DNA of 28,137 nt from IMG/VR virus record IMGVR_UViG_3300030329_003889, positions 36,586 through 64,722 of that record, one strand, 5' to 3'. Of this stretch, positions 3,906 through 21,138 are shown piece after piece. The position numbers and the translations under genes are program-made. How positions within the stretch are numbered: position 1 is the first letter of the stretch; each line of letters opens with the position of its first letter. The stretch comes from a virus. The notes beneath the pieces were generated by a model. The model saw only the letters and a list, made by a program, of their open reading frames with translations. It searched no databases and was not told the DNA's origin.

Positions 3906-4331
3906 ATGAAGAAAGATCAGAATTACATAGCAAAGGTAGAACAGGCCATAGCGAAGAAGTATGGCGAAGATACCGTGCAAAATCCAAAGAAACATTGGAA
4001 CGAAGAAAAAGAAAAAGAATATCTCCAGCAATTAAAAGATTTGCAAGAGAGAGAAGATAAAAGAAAACAAAAATCAGAAAAAGTTATGCAAGACGACGTT
4101 CTTGTTGATAAAAGACTAATTACAAAAAGAATAGATAGAACATGCCCTGTTTGCTCAGTTTATTCTTTTTCACCACAGGATGATCTTTATATTAACAGGT
4201 TCGAGTGCTGTAAAGGCTGTTACATTGAATTTGTAGAGGGTAGAGAAGAACGGTGGGCTACTGGCTGGAGACCAGATAAAAATGAAGTTGAAGAAAGAAG
4301 AATTAAAAAAAATCATAAAAGAGGTAGTTGA
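3906..4331 (+). CDS. Cys4 zinc-ribbon-like protein of unknown function
   Basis: The product has 141 residues, highly charged (Lys/Glu) and mostly helical over residues 1-75. A cysteine cluster follows: CPVC near 79-82, then FECCKGC near 99-105, a pair of knuckles suited to binding one zinc. Aromatic and charged residues follow (EGREERWATGWRP). No SD sequence precedes the ATG; a perfect extended -10 sits 8 bases upstream instead. It opens the cassette that runs to 7965 and overlaps the next gene by 50 bases. I know of similar Cys-cluster proteins in environmental phages but of no established function. Nucleic-acid or protein binding is only a guess. Confidence 0.75.
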   Translation: MKKDQNYIAKVEQAIAKKYGEDTVQNPKKHWNEEKEKEYLQQLKDLQEREDKRKQKSEKVMQDDVLVDKRLITKRIDRTCPVCSVYSFSPQDDLYINRFECCKGCYIEFVEGREERWATGWRPDKNEVEERRIKKNHKRGS

Positions 4332-4512
4332 ACAAGCCTTAGCAGAAGTATCACCAGAAGATATTAATATGATCTTCAATCAAATGATCAAAGACGCGGC
4401 AACAACACACCAGAAATTAAATCCTGCACAGCAAGAAGCATATGAAAACCTGCTCGTGCAAACCGGACGCGCCCTGGCAAGCGGAAGAGAAGAGCAAGAA
4501 AGAGAGATTTAA
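4282..4512 (+). CDS. Small helical protein with KKxELKKIIK N-terminus, unknown function
   Basis: The product has 76 residues and is predicted almost entirely helical. It begins MKLKKEELKKIIKEVVEQAL, a basic amphipathic helix very like the start of the protein at 14445 (MKKSEFKKIIKPIVKECIQE). The rest (NMIFNQMIKDAATTHQKL) has no recognisable motif. GGAG at 4267-4270 is 11 bases from the ATG. It overlaps the end of the Cys4 gene by 50 bases in another frame, and its stop is separated from the next ATG by one base, so translation is probably coupled. Confidence 0.65.
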   Translation: MKLKKEELKKIIKEVVEQALAEVSPEDINMIFNQMIKDAATTHQKLNPAQQEAYENLLVQTGRALASGREEQEREI

Positions 4513-4513
4513 A

Positions 4514-4876
4514 ATGTTACGAAAACTTAGACCAATAGTTTTCGAGGATAGTTTGATAGTCAGAATCCTTTCTGCACTACACCTCCTTGGAGTTAGAATC
4601 ATTGCATTATCCTTCGGGCCTTTTATTTTTCTTAAGAATAAAAGAAACCCATTAATGGAGAACCATGAAACAATTCATTTCTTTCAACAACTGGAATTGT
4701 TGTTTGTTTTTCAGTGGCTTTTATATGGTATTTTTTATTTAGTTGGACTTGTTAAACACCGTAGTCGAAGCCTTGCGTACTATTCTAATCCTTTTGAGAA
4801 AGAAGCTTATGAAAATCAAGGTGATATGAACTACTTAGAACGTCGCCCTTGGTTTAATTGGAGAAGATATTTATGA
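4514..4876 (+). CDS. Membrane protein with HExxH zinc metallopeptidase motif
   Basis: The product has 120 residues from the ATG at 4514, one base after the preceding stop. A longer frame starts at 4442 but would overlap the previous gene and lacks a ribosome site. HETIH (residues 51-55) is an exact HExxH zinc motif and is followed by FQQLELL and a hydrophobic segment (about 60-80). FEKEAYEN (94-101) offers a candidate third ligand (Glu95 or Glu97), and the chain ends YLERRPWFNWRRYL. A weaker hydrophobic stretch covers 15-40. From memory, small Bacteroidetes proteins share this layout (HExIHxxQQ, FExEAYxN, YLxxR); I cannot check this here. An active membrane protease is an inference. Its stop overlaps the next start as ATGA. 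Confidence 0.7.
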   Translation: MLRKLRPIVFEDSLIVRILSALHLLGVRIIALSFGPFIFLKNKRNPLMENHETIHFFQQLELLFVFQWLLYGIFYLVGLVKHRSRSLAYYSNPFEKEAYENQGDMNYLERRPWFNWRRYL

Positions 4877-7308
4877 GCCCACTTAAAGAATCCTTTAATA
4901 GTTGGAGAAACTACGTTAATGAAGACTTATTAGTAGAGAGCAGGTATAAGGATGCACTAGCTTACGCCCAGAACTTTAACAAGATGGGTAAACAGTTCAA
5001 AGTGAAAGATGTTGTTGATCAGTTTACTCCAGAACACGAGCAGAGACTTAAAGATGCAATGAAGAGGGGCATAGAGTATGCCCGAGAAGAGGACCCAAGT
5101 GGTGACAATAAGTATCTCATGTGGATAGCTCGCTATCTTAGAAAGGATTTAGCAAGAAGACTTCAGAAGTTTAGCAAGAATTGGAGCACTGACCCAGTAA
5201 ATTATTATGACCCGGAAGCAAAAAAGAATTCTGCATTCGACCCAGATGTGATTACAAATTCAATCGCCAGTCACCTAGTAGACTTGGTTCTTGCCACCTC
5301 TACCACTATAAAAGACTATCACCTTCTTAAACAAAGAAACCTTTTTAAGAAAGACATTAACGACTATGATCCTGTTAATATGGCTGGTGATTTTAAAAAT
5401 GACGTTATAATTGCAATGAGAGATTATGAAGGAAGGCAAGCAAAGGAAAAGTTAAAACAACAGGTAAAAGGCGAGGCCGATGATCTTCTTGAGACAGATG
5501 ACTACGCAGTTATTCGCCCCAACACAGAGGGTGCCTCTTGTTATTACGGCTGGGGTACTCGCTGGTGCATTTCAGCTAGAGAGTCTCGCAATTATTTCAA
5601 TCAATATACAGGAGAAGGCAAGTCGTTCTATTTCGTCATGTTCAGGCATCTTCCTAATTCCAATCGTTATAAAAAGGTGGCACTTGTATACGGGAAGGAT
5701 CAAGGTTATGAGACAGAACCAGAGCAGGTCTTCGATGCCACCGACGAAGAAACCGGTGAAGTTGGTTTGATTGAAGCGATCACCGAGAACTTCCTCTATC
5801 GCGTATTTCAAAAAAGTGATATTTTTGAAAAAACAAGAAATAAGATCAAAGGCTTGGAGGACCAAGAAGATCGCGATGAGAGACTAGATGGTATGAAAGA
5901 TATGATCGCCAGAATGATTGAGGACCCAACAGAGGACAAAATCCCTAACGAGACGGTCCTGAAAGTGGCGAACTATCTTTTCCCAGATACCTACTCCGAA
6001 GTAATCGATTTAGAAATAACACCCCTTTCGGAAAGATTTGACGAACTTGTACAAGAGACTTACAGCGACATTACAGGCAATGCTGCTTATCATGCTGAAC
6101 AAAACCCCGCAGGCCCCAAGGGCGAAGATTATCAAGACAAAATGGATGAATATAATTTTGCTCATGTTAACGTAACTTATGATGAGTATGATACAAATTC
6201 TTGGTATTGGGACGGAAGTGCCGTAATTGATATTCGAGACCCCAGACTTTCAGATTTGAACATTCCTGAAGACGTTGACATGGACGAAATTGAAACTGTT
6301 GTGCAAACAGCTATTGATAATTCTAGCATATACGTCGACGAAATAGAGATATATGATCGTGATGAAGAAGAGATTCAACTGCGTTTTACACCTGATTACG
6401 ACGAGGGCACCGGCTTAGACGGATTTGAAAGATTCTTGGACAGAATGTCCGAATACGATGACTTACTTACAGGTAAGACAGGATTCTGGGAAGACTTAGC
6501 CGACGCTATATTAGACGCCGGCCTAACTGCTGGCGGATTGAAGGAGCTTGAAGCGGTTCTTGACGAAGAGAAATTCACAAATATCGAATATAGTGTTGAA
6601 GGCAGGAAGATGGAGATCGTGTTGGAGCTTGACCCTATTTTGGGTAGACCGCCCAACCTTCCCGGCCTTTACTTCGCCCAAGTAATAAGAGCCCTCACAG
6701 GATACAGTGAACACTTCGGCGGCGCTGGTGAGATAGGTTCAATGGGTAAAGACAAAGCCGAAAAAATCCCAGTTGCAATCGCCACAGCTACGTTGGATAA
6801 GATAGAAGATATAATAGCAAAGAAATTCAACATGGTTTGGGACCAAATAGATTTGCCGGGATTTGAAAGAGAAGGTGATCCCAAAGAGATCGACGCATTA
6901 CCTTTAATTGATATGGGGTTTTATGGTAAGCCACGCCAGATATCACTCCTAGGTTATAATAATGATACGGTTTCCTGGGATACGGGAGAAGAGGGGAAGG
7001 GTGGCGCAGGTATAAATGTGGAATATCCATACAACTTTGTGCTAGAGCTTACAAATGAGGAATATTGGGAATCCATCGGTGCCGACGACGAAGAATCACA
7101 GGCATTGATAAGGTTTTTAAGATGGATCGATCAGGATAAGGTCAAGGATCAAATCGAAGCTGTCCTTCAGGGCGTACTTAACGACACAGTTCTGCAAATT
7201 ATTAAAAACCATCCACCCCAGCAGGCAAAAAAGCCAGCAGAGGCAGATAAAGAGGAAGATCAGCAAGTGGCGGAACTATTTAAACGTTGGAATAAATTTT
7301 TGGGGTAA
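4873..7308 (+). CDS. Large protein (811 aa) with capsid-targeting-like N-terminus, unknown function
   Basis: The frame can begin at a TTG at 4858, but GGAGAAG at 4860-4866 places the start at the ATG at 4873, which overlaps the previous stop as ATGA. The N-terminus, MSPLKESFNSWRNYVNE, resembles the capsid-targeting peptides of T4 internal proteins (for example MKTYQEFIAE), which the gp21 protease cuts after Glu. The C-terminus, LFKRWNKFLG, carries a similar aromatic FxxW pattern. Around residues 223-256 is YYGWGTRWCIS then NYFNQYTGEGKSFYFV, a pattern I have seen in phage proteins without a known role. The middle is very acidic (Asp/Glu-rich, 420-560). No catalytic family is recognised. A virion-packaged protein delivered with the DNA is a hypothesis resting on the terminal motif and the presence of gp21. 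Confidence 0.75.
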   Translation: MSPLKESFNSWRNYVNEDLLVESRYKDALAYAQNFNKMGKQFKVKDVVDQFTPEHEQRLKDAMKRGIEYAREEDPSGDNKYLMWIARYLRKDLARRLQKFSKNWSTDPVNYYDPEAKKNSAFDPDVITNSIASHLVDLVLATSTTIKDYHLLKQRNLFKKDINDYDPVNMAGDFKNDVIIAMRDYEGRQAKEKLKQQVKGEADDLLETDDYAVIRPNTEGASCYYGWGTRWCISARESRNYFNQYTGEGKSFYFVMFRHLPNSNRYKKVALVYGKDQGYETEPEQVFDATDEETGEVGLIEAITENFLYRVFQKSDIFEKTRNKIKGLEDQEDRDERLDGMKDMIARMIEDPTEDKIPNETVLKVANYLFPDTYSEVIDLEITPLSERFDELVQETYSDITGNAAYHAEQNPAGPKGEDYQDKMDEYNFAHVNVTYDEYDTNSWYWDGSAVIDIRDPRLSDLNIPEDVDMDEIETVVQTAIDNSSIYVDEIEIYDRDEEEIQLRFTPDYDEGTGLDGFERFLDRMSEYDDLLTGKTGFWEDLADAILDAGLTAGGLKELEAVLDEEKFTNIEYSVEGRKMEIVLELDPILGRPPNLPGLYFAQVIRALTGYSEHFGGAGEIGSMGKDKAEKIPVAIATATLDKIEDIIAKKFNMVWDQIDLPGFEREGDPKEIDALPLIDMGFYGKPRQISLLGYNNDTVSWDTGEEGKGGAGINVEYPYNFVLELTNEEYWESIGADDEESQALIRFLRWIDQDKVKDQIEAVLQGVLNDTVLQIIKNHPPQQAKKPAEADKEEDQQVAELFKRWNKFLG

Positions 7309-7476: not shown

Positions 7477-7965
7477 ATGAAACCAATTATAGAAAGCTGG
7501 AGGCTTTTTCTTGTAGTATTAGCCTTGACAGTTATAGTGTGCTCTTCTTTCATATTGATGAGGGAATCTGCGAATACACCTCCAGAAAAAGTTGTTGGCG
7601 AGATCGAAGTTACGACTGAACCACATTCTTTTGAAAAGCCAATAATGATTATGCCTACAAAAGAGGCGGAACAGGTGATAATGTATTCTGCTCCTTGGTG
7701 TAAGTGGTGTAAAGTCGCAAAAGAATTTTTCAAAGAGAAAAAGATAAGTTATATAGAGAAGAGTATACAGAACAAAGAGGAGTACGAAGCCCTCGTTGCA
7801 TTTGCAAAAAGAATTAAGTATACAGGCCCGTTAAACGCAGTGCCTATTTTTATTATTAAAGATAATATTATTTTAGGCTTTAATAAAAGAGAAATTATGT
7901 GTATACTAGAACTAACTAAATGCGATGCAATTGAATTTATAAGATCCAAGACGGAATTGGATTGA
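7477..7965 (+). CDS. Membrane-anchored glutaredoxin/thioredoxin-fold protein
   Basis: The product has 162 residues. Residues 1-9 carry Lys and Arg, and about 10-28 are a hydrophobic helix (LFLVVLALTVIVCSSFILM), so the chain should be anchored with its C-terminal domain outside the cytoplasm by the positive-inside rule. After a linker, the globular domain has YSAPWCKWCK (active-site CxxC), a KKISYIEKSI strand, and NAVPIF with the conserved cis-proline position. This order is that of glutaredoxins. The Cys in VIVCSS is not a convincing lipobox. AAGGA at 7459-7463 is a usable ribosome site. T4 NrdC is soluble, so a tethered form in a late gene block is unusual. Substrates are unknown; a role in envelope thiol chemistry is inferred. 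Confidence 0.75.
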   Translation: MKPIIESWRLFLVVLALTVIVCSSFILMRESANTPPEKVVGEIEVTTEPHSFEKPIMIMPTKEAEQVIMYSAPWCKWCKVAKEFFKEKKISYIEKSIQNKEEYEALVAFAKRIKYTGPLNAVPIFIIKDNIILGFNKREIMCILELTKCDAIEFIRSKTELD

Positions 7966-13765: not shown

Positions 13766-13834
13766 ATGGAAGTAGAGATCACAGTAAAGAAATGGATTTT
13801 ACAACCTGTTAGACGCTGCTGCAAAGGATCGTGA
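13766..13834 (+). CDS. Possible 22-residue leader peptide before the prohead protease
   Basis: A tiny frame reads MEVEITVKKWILQPVRRCCK and two more residues. It has a strong ribosome site (GAGGAG at 13753-13758) and starts 2 bases after the preceding stop. Its last codons lie over AAAGGA, the ribosome site of the protease gene, and its stop is 2 bases before that ATG. Translation of this frame could open or pace the protease start. The peptide is basic at its end, with a Cys pair. Whether it is a functional product is unknown. Confidence 0.35.
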   Translation: MEVEITVKKWILQPVRRCCKGS

Positions 13835-13836
13835 CT

Positions 13837-14448
13837 ATGAGCAAGTATTTACTTAGAGAATTTTATGAATTGTGCCCAAATGGGACGTGCGAAGATCTTC
13901 TTACTGAAGAAGAAAAGCGAATGGTTCGGGAGAACAAAGCTGTTTTCCTAACTGGAATCATGCAAAGAGCGGACGCACAAAACGGAAACGGAAGAGTGTA
14001 TCCAAAACCAATTCTTGAAAGAGAGATGGAAAATTATACAAAACTTGTAAAAGAGAGAAGAGCCCTAGGTGAACTAGATCACCCAGAAGATTCAGTTGTC
14101 AACCTCAAAAACGCCTCCCACATGGTTACCGATGTTTGGTGGGACGGTGATGACGTTATGGGCAAGGTTCAAGTTCTTGATACCCCATCGGGAAAAGTAT
14201 TAAAAGAACTCGTCAACGCAGGAGTCAAGCTCGGTATCTCTTCTAGAGGTTTAGGTTCGGTTAGTGAAAGCAACGGTCAAACAATAGTGGAAGACGACTT
14301 TCAGCTTATTTGTTTTGATTTTGTTTCCGAGCCCTCTACCCATGGTGCCTTTATGATGACTGAAAGCAAGAATATAAATCTTGACACAGTGTTCACAAAA
14401 GCAGATAAAATAAACAGAGTCTTAAACGACATCTTGAGAGAAGAATGA
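13837..14448 (+). CDS. 21: Prohead core protease (gp21-like)
   Basis: The product has 203 residues from the ATG at 13837. A GTG at 13831 is in frame, but AAAGGA at 13823-13828 fits only the ATG. It is the serine protease that digests the prohead core and trims gp23 during maturation. Visible signatures are LTGIMQRADAQNGNGRVYPK (39-58), GELDHPE with catalytic His82, GISSRGLG with the Ser135/136 nucleophile, and ICFDFVSEPSTHGAF with a candidate Asp161. T4 gp21 is about 212 residues, so this is full length. It should cut after Glu in hxE contexts; candidate sites are seen in the capsid protein and in the 811-residue protein. Its stop overlaps the next start as ATGA. Confidence 0.93.
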   Translation: MSKYLLREFYELCPNGTCEDLLTEEEKRMVRENKAVFLTGIMQRADAQNGNGRVYPKPILEREMENYTKLVKERRALGELDHPEDSVVNLKNASHMVTDVWWDGDDVMGKVQVLDTPSGKVLKELVNAGVKLGISSRGLGSVSESNGQTIVEDDFQLICFDFVSEPSTHGAFMMTESKNINLDTVFTKADKINRVLNDILREE

Positions 14449-14870
14449 AAAAATCAGAATTTAAAAAGATTATTAAGCCAATTGTTAAAGAGTGTATTCA
14501 GGAAGCCCTATTAGAAGAGGGGCTCCTGTCTAGTGTTATTTCTGAAGTTGTGAAGGGCCTAGGCCCAGCGCCTGTAGTTGAAAATAAACAGCAAGAAGAA
14601 GATTCTTTCGAAACACAGGCTATCAACGAAGAGAAAGAGCGTCGACGCAAGCACGCTCATGAAACTAAGAAAAAGATGTTGGACGCAATTGGTCAAAGTT
14701 CCTACAACGGTGTAGACCTCTTTGAGGGTACAACACCAATGCACCAGTCTTCTGAGTCATCTGGACCAGCCCCTTTTGCTGATGTCGCCCCAGAAGACGC
14801 TGGTGTTGATATCTCGGCCCTGATGGGCAAGAAGAAAATCTGGAATACTTTATTAGAAGGTAAGAAATGA
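14445..14870 (+). CDS. Conserved helical protein with KKxEFKKIIK N-terminus, unknown function
   Basis: The product has 141 residues and starts in the ATGA overlap with the protease gene. It begins MKKSEFKKIIKPIVKECIQE, which closely matches the helix opening the protein at 4282, then ALLEEGLLSSVISEVVKGLG. The middle is charged (NEEKERRRKHAHETKKKM), and a low-complexity part rich in Ser, Pro and Ala precedes the ending GKKKIWNTLLEGKK. No known domain is recognised. Its place between protease and scaffold suggests a prohead core component, possibly cut at LLEE-like sites, but this is inference. Its stop overlaps the next start as ATGA. Confidence 0.7.
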   Translation: MKKSEFKKIIKPIVKECIQEALLEEGLLSSVISEVVKGLGPAPVVENKQQEEDSFETQAINEEKERRRKHAHETKKKMLDAIGQSSYNGVDLFEGTTPMHQSSESSGPAPFADVAPEDAGVDISALMGKKKIWNTLLEGKK

Positions 14871-15085
14871 GAAAAAAAGTTATTAATGTAGAGATTACCC
14901 CTAGGGGAAAAGAATCTGTAGAGAGAATGCTAAAAAGATTTACAAGAAAAGTTAAAAAAGAAGGCATATTGCAAACAATTAGAGATAAGAGATATTATGA
15001 GAAACCCTCTGTTAAAAAACAGAGGACTAGAAAGCAAAGAAAAAAAGTTTTGGACAAGCTAAAACGAGAAAGAGATACTATTTAA
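14867..15085 (+). CDS. rpsU: Ribosomal protein bS21 homologue, phage-encoded
   Basis: The product has 72 residues, the size of bacterial bS21, with a very high Lys/Arg content. The order of features matches bS21: a short beta start (KKVINVEITPRGKESVERML), KRFTRKVKKEGIL (cf. RRFKRSCEKAGVL of E. coli), IRDKRYYEKPSVKK (cf. VRRREFYEKPTTER), then a basic helix. bS21 sits on the 30S platform beside the 16S 3' end that reads Shine-Dalgarno sites. Phage bS21 genes are known from Pelagibacter phage HTVC008M and from huge phages. Here it lies in the prohead block, translationally coupled by ATGA to the previous gene. Replacement of host bS21 to favour phage messages is the usual hypothesis. Confidence 0.9.
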   Translation: MRKKVINVEITPRGKESVERMLKRFTRKVKKEGILQTIRDKRYYEKPSVKKQRTRKQRKKVLDKLKRERDTI

Positions 15086-18296: not shown

Positions 18297-18328
18297 TTTG
18301 ATTGCAATCATTTAATGGAGAAATTGAC

Positions 18329-19402
18329 ATGTCAAAAATGCTAGAACAGGCTATTATTGATGCTGAAGCTTTGCGTGAGGCCGCGCTTAAAACAGCAGAG
18401 CAGAGTATCGTTGAAAAATATTCTGAGGAAGTAAAAGCCGCAGTAAATCAAATACTTGAACAACCTGAAGACGATATGGGCGGAATGGATTTGGAAGCTG
18501 GAGACATGGACGCAGCGGAAGATGGCGACGAATTCGCAGACGTACCCCGCGCAGATACAGATGGTGATGATCTGTGCCCTTGTCCAGAAGAGGGTGAGGA
18601 AATCACAATTGATCTAATGAAGATTGCACAAGACTTAGAAAAACAAATGGTTGATCGTGGAGATGTTGTCGACGACGTAGAAGACGAAATGACATCTGAC
18701 GACGACGAAGAGGAAGAGGAAGAAGACACACTTGCTCTTCAAGAGGATCAAGATCTTGATATTCCTGAAGAGTGGATTGACCAGTTAGTAGAAAAGGTCA
18801 GTCTCAATGTAACTCCAGTACCTTCCGGTGTCCCAGGCGGAAACTCCAATGTAACAATGGAGCGCGAGCTTGAGGATATCATTAAAGCACGTTTGGCAGT
18901 TGATGAGGTGGCAGAAGAGAAAACAGAAAACGAAAAAGCCGCTGATCCTGTCGACACAAAGAAACTAGTTCAGATCGCCTCAACAAAAGAGCTTGAGTTG
19001 AATGAACAGATTGAAACTTTGACACAAGACAGAAAAGGACTTGTTAAAGAAAACAATGAACTTAAGAAGCTTATGTCAAAAATGAAAATAAAGTTGGAAG
19101 AGGTCAGTTTGACTAATGCACAACTTTATTATACAAACAAAGTTTTGGGTAGCACCTCTCTGAATGAGCGACAAAAAACAAAAATTGTCGAGTCTTTATC
19201 CAATACTTCGTCAGTTGAAGAAACAAAGGTTATTTTCGACACCCTTCAAAGTGCAGTGGGTCAGGACAATAAAGTTAGACCACAATCACTGGACGAAGCA
19301 GTCAGCCGTACTTCAACAATACTTCCTCGTAGAGAGGAAAAACGAGTAAATGAATCCGTGTCTAGTCGTTGGAAGACGCTAGCGGGTATTCATAAAGATT
19401 AA
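18329..19402 (+). CDS. 22: Prohead core scaffold protein (gp22-like)
   Basis: The product has 357 residues. A TTG at 18302 is in frame, but GGAG at 18317-18320 fits the ATG at 18329. It is the internal scaffold on which gp23 assembles and is normally degraded by gp21. Layout: a helical N-terminus (MSKMLEQAIIDAEALREAAL), an acidic middle (47-145) including a run of Asp/Glu near 124-133 and an unusual DLCPCPEEGEE (81-91), a coiled coil (about 218-262), then LYYTNKVLGSTSLNERQKTK (267-286) and SVEETKVIFDTLQSAV, the conserved C-terminal core of this family. It ends SSRWKTLAGIHKD. T4 gp22 is 269 residues. It lies directly before the capsid gene, as in T4. Confidence 0.88.
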   Translation: MSKMLEQAIIDAEALREAALKTAEQSIVEKYSEEVKAAVNQILEQPEDDMGGMDLEAGDMDAAEDGDEFADVPRADTDGDDLCPCPEEGEEITIDLMKIAQDLEKQMVDRGDVVDDVEDEMTSDDDEEEEEEDTLALQEDQDLDIPEEWIDQLVEKVSLNVTPVPSGVPGGNSNVTMERELEDIIKARLAVDEVAEEKTENEKAADPVDTKKLVQIASTKELELNEQIETLTQDRKGLVKENNELKKLMSKMKIKLEEVSLTNAQLYYTNKVLGSTSLNERQKTKIVESLSNTSSVEETKVIFDTLQSAVGQDNKVRPQSLDEAVSRTSTILPRREEKRVNESVSSRWKTLAGIHKD

Positions 19403-19425: not shown

Positions 19426-21138
19426 ATGTCAGTTTTAGAAAAACTTACTGAAGGTATCGTTAACAGAGACTTGGCAAAAGAAGGTGCTGCCCTACTTGAA
19501 AAGTGGGAGAAGACCGGTCTTTTGGAAGGTATTGATAACGATACAGATAAGAATGGCATGGCTCGCCTTCTTGAAAATCAAGCAAAAGAGCTACTTCGTG
19601 AGGCTTCCACAATGGCAGCAGGTGACGTTGAAGGTTTCGCAGCAGTTGCGTTCCCTCTCGTCCGACGTGTTTTCGGTTCCCTCATTGCTAACGACCTTGT
19701 TAGCGTTCAACCAATGAGCCTCCCTTCGGGACTCATCTTCTTCCTTGACTTCACTGTACACTCAGCGAAGCTTGGATACGAGGCAGGTGATTCACTTTAT
19801 GGTGGTGGTGTTGTTGGTCAGGCCCTTACAGGTGGTCTTGACCTTACCGGCGAAGCTGGTGAAGACGGCCCATACAACCTTAACAATGGCTACTCTGCCC
19901 CAACAGCTTCCGCTGTAGTTACAACACAGGCTGCTCTTGTCATGCACGGTACAGCATCCATGGGCGACGATGATCTCGACAAAGCAATTCGCTTTGACCC
20001 AGATCTTTCCGGTTCCGTTGTTATTGTCTGCGCTTTCGCAGGCGAGGCTGGTATCGCGGGGTTGGATATGAAGAACCTTGTGGCACTCACTGGTTCGACA
20101 CAAACTGGATTTAGACAGATTCGTCGTTTGACCGAGGTACACTCTGGTTCTACGGGTAATCTTATGGACCCAGAAAACACTAACTTAGATATTAAGCTTG
20201 TTTATGAGCGCACCACCGCCGATGCTGGCGAGATTGTTACCGCAATTGAAGCACTTGACGGTAACGATATTGGTGTTTCCTTCACACTTGCAGACAACTT
20301 TAACAACGTTACTGAGGCCGGTGGCCGAGGCGTTGGTGCTGTTGTTGGTGCTGACACATGGGGTCTTGAAAATCAAACACAAATCCCAGAGATCGACCTT
20401 AAGGTTGACTCCGTGTCCGTAACAGCCGTCACTAAGAAGTTGAAGGCAAAATGGACTCCTGAGCTTGGCCAGGACCTCAATGCTTATCACAACCTTGACG
20501 CTGAAGTCGAGCTTACAGGTATTCTCTCCGAGCAGATCGCTCTTGAGATTGACCGTGAGATCCTCGAAGACCTCGTTAAGGGCGCTACAGCCGGTACACT
20601 CTACTGGTCCCGCGCTGCTGGTAAGTTCGTAAACCGCGAAACTGGTGCAGAAATTGGTGCTACTACAGTAACTCCAGACTTCACCGGTACTGTGTCCGAA
20701 TGGTATGAGACATTGTGTGAAACAATTAATGACGTTTCCGCACGTATCCACCGTAAGACACTTCGTGGTGGCGCAAACTTTATTGTTTGCTCGCCAGAGG
20801 TTGCCAACATTCTTGAGTTTACAGCAGGCTTCCGTGCTGACGTAGCTGGCGACTTTGACCGTGGTCAAGTCGGCGCTGTTCGCGTTGGTTCACTTAGCAA
20901 GAAGCAGGACATTCACGTAGATCCATATTTCCCAAGAAATGTGATCCTCGTAGGTCGCAGAGGCGGTTCGTTCCTTGAGAGCGGATATGTCTATGCTCCA
21001 TATGTACCTCTTCAGGTAACTCCAACTATCTTCGGTATCGAAGACTTCGTGCCTCGTAAGGGCGTGATGACTCGCTATGCGAAGAAGATGGTACGTCCTG
21101 ATATGTACGGTCTTGTTATTGTTGAAGATCTTGTCTAA
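19426..21138 (+). CDS. 23: Major capsid protein (gp23-like)
   Basis: The product has 570 residues (T4: 521), with AAAAGGAG at 19410-19417. Residues 60-110 align with the mature start of T4 gp23: ASTMAAGDVEGFAAVAFPLV, then RRVFGSLIANDLVSVQPM. The preceding LLRE gives a likely gp21 cleavage between Glu59 and Ala60, equivalent to IAE|A in T4. The C-terminal half has the HK97-fold stretch with GILSEQIALEIDREILEDLV, GGANFIVCSPEVANILEF and FLESGYVYAPYVPLQVTPTI. It forms the hexameric shell. Arg is mostly CGT/CGC, unlike the AGA-rich neighbours, consistent with very high expression. It follows the scaffold by 23 bases and is ended by a strong terminator. No separate gp24 vertex gene is seen in the window. 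Confidence 0.96.
   Translation: MSVLEKLTEGIVNRDLAKEGAALLEKWEKTGLLEGIDNDTDKNGMARLLENQAKELLREASTMAAGDVEGFAAVAFPLVRRVFGSLIANDLVSVQPMSLPSGLIFFLDFTVHSAKLGYEAGDSLYGGGVVGQALTGGLDLTGEAGEDGPYNLNNGYSAPTASAVVTTQAALVMHGTASMGDDDLDKAIRFDPDLSGSVVIVCAFAGEAGIAGLDMKNLVALTGSTQTGFRQIRRLTEVHSGSTGNLMDPENTNLDIKLVYERTTADAGEIVTAIEALDGNDIGVSFTLADNFNNVTEAGGRGVGAVVGADTWGLENQTQIPEIDLKVDSVSVTAVTKKLKAKWTPELGQDLNAYHNLDAEVELTGILSEQIALEIDREILEDLVKGATAGTLYWSRAAGKFVNRETGAEIGATTVTPDFTGTVSEWYETLCETINDVSARIHRKTLRGGANFIVCSPEVANILEFTAGFRADVAGDFDRGQVGAVRVGSLSKKQDIHVDPYFPRNVILVGRRGGSFLESGYVYAPYVPLQVTPTIFGIEDFVPRKGVMTRYAKKMVRPDMYGLVIVEDLV

Follow-up and report, generated by a model that had tools for sequence, protein, structure and literature searches.

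The question raised by this locus is whether a large phage protein with targeting-like motifs at both ends is carried inside the head and delivered to the next host cell. The stretch analyzed here (the window; 28,137 nucleotides, positions 36,586 to 64,722 of IMG/VR record IMGVR_UViG_3300030329_003889) forms the final 28 kb of a 64.7-kb contig, and the gene in question, P0001, is an open reading frame (ORF) with an ATG start. Our analysis indicated that P0001 is probably an internal head protein with a cleavable capsid-targeting leader, processed by an S77-family prohead protease, ejected with the DNA and acting in the new host cell. The ORF translation contains both terminal motifs and the WCIS stretch where an initial annotation had placed them, with ESFNSWRNYVNE at residues 6-17, the WCIS motif at residues 224-249 and LFKRWNKFLG at residues 802-811. 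The features of P0001 are as follows (an arrow marks a predicted cut).

4873..7308, plus strand: P0001, putative packaged and ejected cargo protein, 811 amino acids; orthologues in L132 and L133 at 55-59% identity
4873..4923, plus strand: leader, residues 1-17 (MSPLKESFNSWRNYVNE↓), predicted capsid-targeting peptide; 14-residue leader common to unrelated proteins
4927..4938, plus strand: residues 19-22, LLVE↓, preferred predicted prohead-protease site before SRYKDA; Glu22 in 55/55 and Leu20 in 51/55 aligned homologues
5254..5808, plus strand: core domain, residues 128-312, modeled alone (pLDDT 89.9; no PDB fold match at E<=0.001)
5542..5574, plus strand: signature YYGWGTRWCIS, residues 224-234, of the phrog_17056/phrog_28193 family (profile match, alignment)
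7267..7305, plus strand: VAE↓LFKRWNKFLG, residues 799-811, predicted removable C-terminal tail; LNE↓LYKRWGKMIK in L132 and L133, related tails in other homologues

A leader shared by unrelated proteins

The N-terminal motif is no product of chance. In this and related phages, the pattern W[RK].[FYW][LIVM].E fell within the first 32 residues of 37 of the 2,022 distinct ORFs (522,918 residues), compared with 0.16 expected from shuffling, and only three times elsewhere in ORFs, two of these being mis-called starts. It stands on unrelated proteins and ends in (L/I/V)xE; its consensus reads MKLL(F/M)E(N/S)W(R/K)x(F/Y)(L/I)xE↓, usually over 14 residues, and the leader codons vary synonymously. A search for such starts across the genome, as suggested by the initial annotation, found the full motif within the 64.7-kb contig in P0001 only. 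The cleanest test was to scan IMG/VR at the DNA level with only residues 1-9 of the leader, leaving positions 11-14 outside the query. Among the matches listed, 107 of 111 opened into ORFs of at least 50 residues, and the leader-bearing precursors fell into at least 66 body families (single linkage, E<1e-3), often two to five in tandem. In the 102 unique precursors among these matches, which are not fully independent, Glu14 was present in 80 (background, 9%; p about 4e-63), F/Y at position 11 in 89, L/I/V at position 12 in 90 and [LIVM]xE ending at residues 12-17 in 92. The carrier bodies included guanylate kinase, NUDIX, zeta-toxin-like kinase, RNase_T exonuclease, GDSL esterase, GNAT and nucleotidyltransferase, and in most annotated carriers the Pfam enzyme domains began at residues 17-44, just past the leader. 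A tblastn search with the short leader peptide as query returned noise only, and the leader was undescribed in the open-access literature searched, subscription papers lying outside that scope.

In T4, gp21 cuts at L/I-X-E, and the internal proteins carry leaders, 10-19 residues long, that serve as capsid targeting sequences (PMC9026906; PMC3012670). The carriers described here resemble T4 IPI-IPIII in their short N-terminal leader, unrelated mature parts and (L/I)xE end, in the S77 protease found in the same phage and in being accessory, variable cargo. The shared propeptide is mostly 14 residues long (17 or 22 in P0001), ends in L/I-X-E and occurs together with S77 and a Gp23-type head in the same phage. 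As for the likeness to the T4 targeting peptide that had been proposed, the layout and the (L/I/V)xE end held up, whereas the consensus MKLLxENWRxFLxE is the leader's own; the comparison with T4 is one of layout, not alignment, and homology is not claimed. Compared with T4 internal proteins, the cargo here is larger, enzyme-rich, spread over dozens of families, often encoded in tandem and known from genes alone. The polyvalent proteins of phages are likewise large and accessory, and their delivery alongside the DNA has been proposed (PMC5512222), whereas here a short leader on separate proteins would do the targeting, and no polyvalent domain was recognized in P0001.

The presumed cutting enzyme is encoded in the window, which carries a T4-type structural cassette comprising terminase, portal, S77 prohead protease, Gp23-type capsid protein and tail sheath. 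The phage itself is a presumably marine myophage with a T4-type head, whose prohead protease is of the S77 (gp21) type and whose capsid protein is of the Gp23 type. Its terminase relatives are abundant, with 391 IMG/VR stretches, and we take them to be marine from general knowledge of such phages, not from metadata. The head genes are as follows.

13831..14448, plus strand: S77 prohead protease (T4 gp21 family), presumed leader-cutting enzyme (PF03420, 1.9e-33; phrog_207)
14445..14870, plus strand: presumed core component adjoining the protease, N-terminus of the second leader type (MKKSEFKKIIKPIVKECIQEALLEE); assigned by position, recurs in many relatives' loci
18302..19402, plus strand: presumed scaffold/core protein, from its position before the major capsid protein and its acidic, charged composition only
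19426..21138, plus strand: major capsid protein, Gp23 family (PF07068, 4.2e-71); candidate propeptide site LLRE↓ASTMAA at residue 59

Several further observations concern leaders in related loci. At L155:927-9545, a P0001 homologue is surrounded by a putative cargo island of six genes that carry the leader, the start of one of them being mis-called. An 885-residue leader-bearing protein of G001 (L107:4347-7004), reading SCHSPGS...YYKCAVAEAHGHGLVAYVV and ending LQE↓LKNRFAKFMKK, parallels P0001 in layout, and no known family was detectably similar to it. A second N-terminal leader type, MKITKSQLKxIIKEEL, occurred on many unrelated proteins (50 N-terminal and 33 internal occurrences in 2,147 ORFs), with sites at 14445-14870 and 4282-4512 of the window, L194:7055-9365 and L107:17071-18801; it formed a five-gene tandem run in L194, was present in several copies within one 576-residue G001 protein and resembles the N-terminus of the core-like protein adjoining the protease.

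Predicted cut sites and the C-terminal tail

The N-terminus of P0001 reads FNSWRNYVNE-DLLVE↓SR, which offers two candidate cut ends, VNE17 and LVE22. Glu is conserved at both positions, and Glu22, just before the conserved core, appears to be the better-conserved candidate, being Glu in all 55 sequences that have a residue there in our 56-sequence alignment. The cut after Glu17 foreseen initially therefore retains its conserved Glu, with a predicted cut after Glu22 at least as likely. The leader of P0001 is conserved in its orthologues, and that of L019 has the same start residue (MSPLK). In homologues, the leader itself varies and gives way to a constant L-x-E↓(G/S)(R/K) boundary, as in MKLLFENWRQYLNEEQLLIE↓GR, MTDFMKNWKTFLTEDLLIE↓SR and MKFITLLNE↓GK, with MKVKHITQYLFE↓SY in SCTP-2. 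This boundary occurred in 39 of 46 non-redundant homologues versus 28 of the 390 remaining ORFs in those loci, in a comparison whose regular expression was written after seeing examples and whose homologues are not independent. Leader and S77 were both present in SCTP-2, PA5oct, G000, G002 and G004, and the homologues CcrBL9 gp486 and those of L141 and L142, in whose records S77 was undetected, are leaderless and begin just past the boundary. In G013, the leader was present and S77 and Gp23 matches were both absent; this record is probably missing its head genes. Two homologues (L204:3534-5201 and L195:3815-6019) start MPYTRDGKCVYKK..GC in place of the leader, possibly another N-terminal module.

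The C-terminal motif LFKRWNKFLG, pointed out initially as an echo of the N-terminal pattern, also found counterparts, since related tails after (L/V)xE recur in homologues, including LCE↓GWKRWAGK and LQE↓NKRKIRILLKY. A tail devoid of acidic residues after (L/I/V/M)xE was seen in 15/46 homologues versus 32/390 controls (p=1.5e-5, post hoc). T4 Alt is processed by gp21 at both ends (PMC9026906) and thus provides the closest precedent for this tail. Like Alt, P0001 is a large accessory protein, with predicted removal of N- and C-terminal peptides; unlike in Alt, no ART domain was detected in P0001, whose core is unrelated, the ART family being absent from its Pfam and PHROGs matches and the PDB fold search also giving no match.

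The WCIS core family and the gene neighborhood

The WCIS region, initially described as a pattern without known function, forms the core of a large family of phage proteins. P0001 matched two PHROGs without known function, phrog_17056 and phrog_28193, the phrog_17056 profile covering residues 190-354 (E 3.9e-11). Relatives found by tblastn belonged to the jumbo phages PA5oct and SCTP-2 and the siphophage CcrBL9, and a profile-based search recovered relatives in 547 IMG/VR stretches; the family search that worked used alignments A3 and A4, and a single-sequence search of IMG/VR with peptides chosen outside the core found nothing. Y81, G226, W231 and C232 were invariant in the 56-sequence alignment. 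The PA5oct (EST35_0205) and SCTP-2 (gp34/37/40/45/46/48/435) members of the two PHROGs have the WC(T/I)(S/A) core in common with P0001 and, like it, an LxE-ended leader, whereas their leader sequences (MKVKHITQYLFE↓, MKLFEVFTLYE↓) and C-terminal parts differ.

The structure prediction that the initial annotation had proposed for the WCIS region gave a model of the core with a pLDDT of 89.9, and the AlphaFold2 model of full-length P0001 had a mean pLDDT of 82.6; neither the full model nor the core alone had a PDB match at E<=0.001, and Pfam and PADLOC assigned no function to P0001. PcfJ, considered as a possible relative, gave no Pfam match and appeared as one 'PcfJ like' model in BFVD (E 0.25, probability 0.41). 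Viral structural neighbors were proteins of PA5oct, SCTP-2 (accessions A0A248S..., which we take to be SCTP-2 proteins) and CcrBL9, and some giant-virus proteins. Three Marseillevirus-like LCMAC201/202 proteins in BFVD (A0A481YW50, A0A481YZT2 and A0A481Z016), one with ankyrin repeats, resembled P0001 structurally, and the core may, judging from these models, occur outside phages. A scan with a single pattern found a core relative in one bacterial genome only, a WOR-3 metagenome-assembled genome (MAG).

Terminase and portal are encoded near P0001. P0001 is an accessory gene: L019 retains it, as do L018/L020 in part, and the closest relative, L017 (terminase 83% identical), lacks it at this locus. 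Directly upstream is a membrane zincin-like gene (window 4442-4876, phrog_15610, HETIHFFQQLE; real start probably 4514), whose stop shares bases with the P0001 start codon in an ATGA overlap. It ends in WFNWRRYL, and the same bases serve as the P0001 Shine-Dalgarno sequence; this candidate copy of the leader motif was set aside, as it is C-terminal, has no Glu and overlaps the ribosome site. Downstream, window 7477-7965 encodes a glutaredoxin-like protein with an N-terminal membrane anchor, whose leader-like start (MKPIIESWRLFL) has no LxE site; its L017 counterpart has MKTILSSWRLFV. A ribosomal protein S21 homologue lies within the head gene cluster (window 14867-15085). The promoter scan found no excess of promoters, and the terminator scan a weak excess only.

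Competing explanations and proposed cargo delivery

For P0001, we infer packaging, cleavage, ejection and an activity of the WCIS core. Late in infection, the leader, a helix with a WRxYVNE core, would dock onto the prohead scaffold, and the S77 protease would cut after Glu17 and/or Glu22 and probably also before the C-terminal LFKRWNKFLG helix, freeing mature P0001 inside the capsid; on infection, the protein would leave with the DNA and act in the new host cell. An internal, targeted protein with gp21-type processing, as first proposed, is backed by several separate lines of evidence, namely the shared leader, the S77 and Gp23 genes, the loss of the leader in homologues whose phages had no detected S77, the C-terminal tail and mass spectrometry (MS) of PA5oct. 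In PA5oct, the homologue EST35_0205, encoded next to terminase, carries an electrospray ionization tandem mass spectrometry (ESI-MS/MS) note and is labeled structural, and leader-type (SCTP-2-type) starts were enriched among MS-detected proteins (5/90 vs 3/315, p=0.016). This evidence is supportive, not decisive. For MIJ3, proteomics identified just four proteins, from gel bands.

Several points weigh against this account. Metabolic enzymes are also on the PA5oct MS list, so MS detection is not proof of packaging, and the similarity of EST35_0205 to P0001, at about 30% identity, is confined to the core and a portion of the N-terminal region. S77 was found in 10 of the 18 leader-bearing contigs among the blind-scan matches listed, including all five of at least 139 kb, and, among homologue-bearing contigs, in 16 of 27. 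Many of the contigs are incomplete, and the figures are raw counts, uncorrected for an IMG/VR base rate. The L204 contig has S77, yet its homologue starts MPYTRDGKCVYKK without a leader. In YVNE and VAE, Val stands at a position for which T4 favors Leu/Ile, and the motif expressions (N-terminal motif, boundary and PA5oct leader type) were chosen post hoc. Furthermore, enzymes ordinarily regarded as cytoplasmic, such as NUDIX and guanylate kinase proteins, carry the motif, and its presence on clearly cytoplasmic, non-packaged proteins had been named in advance as grounds for rejecting the proposal; taken literally, these enzymes are such a case, but we read them as putative cargo.

The same carriers favor the view that the leader directs proteins within the cell (for example, to a site of replication or assembly, a membrane or a partner protein) and that the tagged enzymes act unpackaged in the infected cell, which we consider unlikely. 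Many carriers (NUDIX, guanylate kinase, nucleotidase-like, exonuclease) are usually held to be cytoplasmic, and the leader-bearing proteins of this phage and its close relatives are known only as genes, a further point against packaging. However, the motif closes, at a fixed position, with an (L/I/V)xE that fits the head protease, the protease co-occurs, homologues from phages in which S77 was undetected lack the leader, and the PA5oct homologue was detected by MS. We give little credence to P0001 being packaged and processed as a structural or core head component that is consumed in assembly instead of being ejected as an effector. The gene's position near terminase and portal, the PA5oct homologue adjoining terminase with its structural label, and the recognition of neither a catalytic family nor a solved fold in P0001 would suit such a component, whereas P0001 is not conserved in close relatives, as at the L017 locus, and the highly variable, enzyme-rich gene content of leader carriers suits accessory cargo. 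That the terminal motifs are chance resemblances, or merely part of the fold of this one family, is highly improbable given a leader on at least 66 unrelated body families, nearly never internal and conserved in orthologues, even though FxWRxYL also ends the unrelated upstream gene and terminal helices are common.

On the cargo reading of P0001, its leader is a modular address tag on many unrelated enzymes in this phage group, and the same tag on dozens of unrelated enzymes suggests a general delivery of enzymes into bacteria alongside viral DNA. We lean slightly toward the view that marine S77-protease myophages possess such general virion-cargo delivery, based on the MKLLxENWRxFLxE↓ leader, possibly a second class (MKITKSQLKxIIKEEL) and tandem cargo islands, in which dozens of interchangeable enzyme families would serve as cargo, zeta-toxin-like kinases, NUDIX hydrolases, nucleases, acetyltransferases and the WCIS family among them, each phage injecting its own enzyme set. 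What is new here is the leader family, the large and enzyme-rich set of putative cargo that these phages encode, and a candidate major cargo in the WCIS family. To our knowledge, injected protein sets are experimentally known for few model phages only. If our reading is true, leaders alone would reveal, from the genomes of uncultured phages, the proteins injected at the moment of infection, and would provide a testable list of candidate early effectors and anti-defense proteins in the ocean, as well as a possible new packaging tag.
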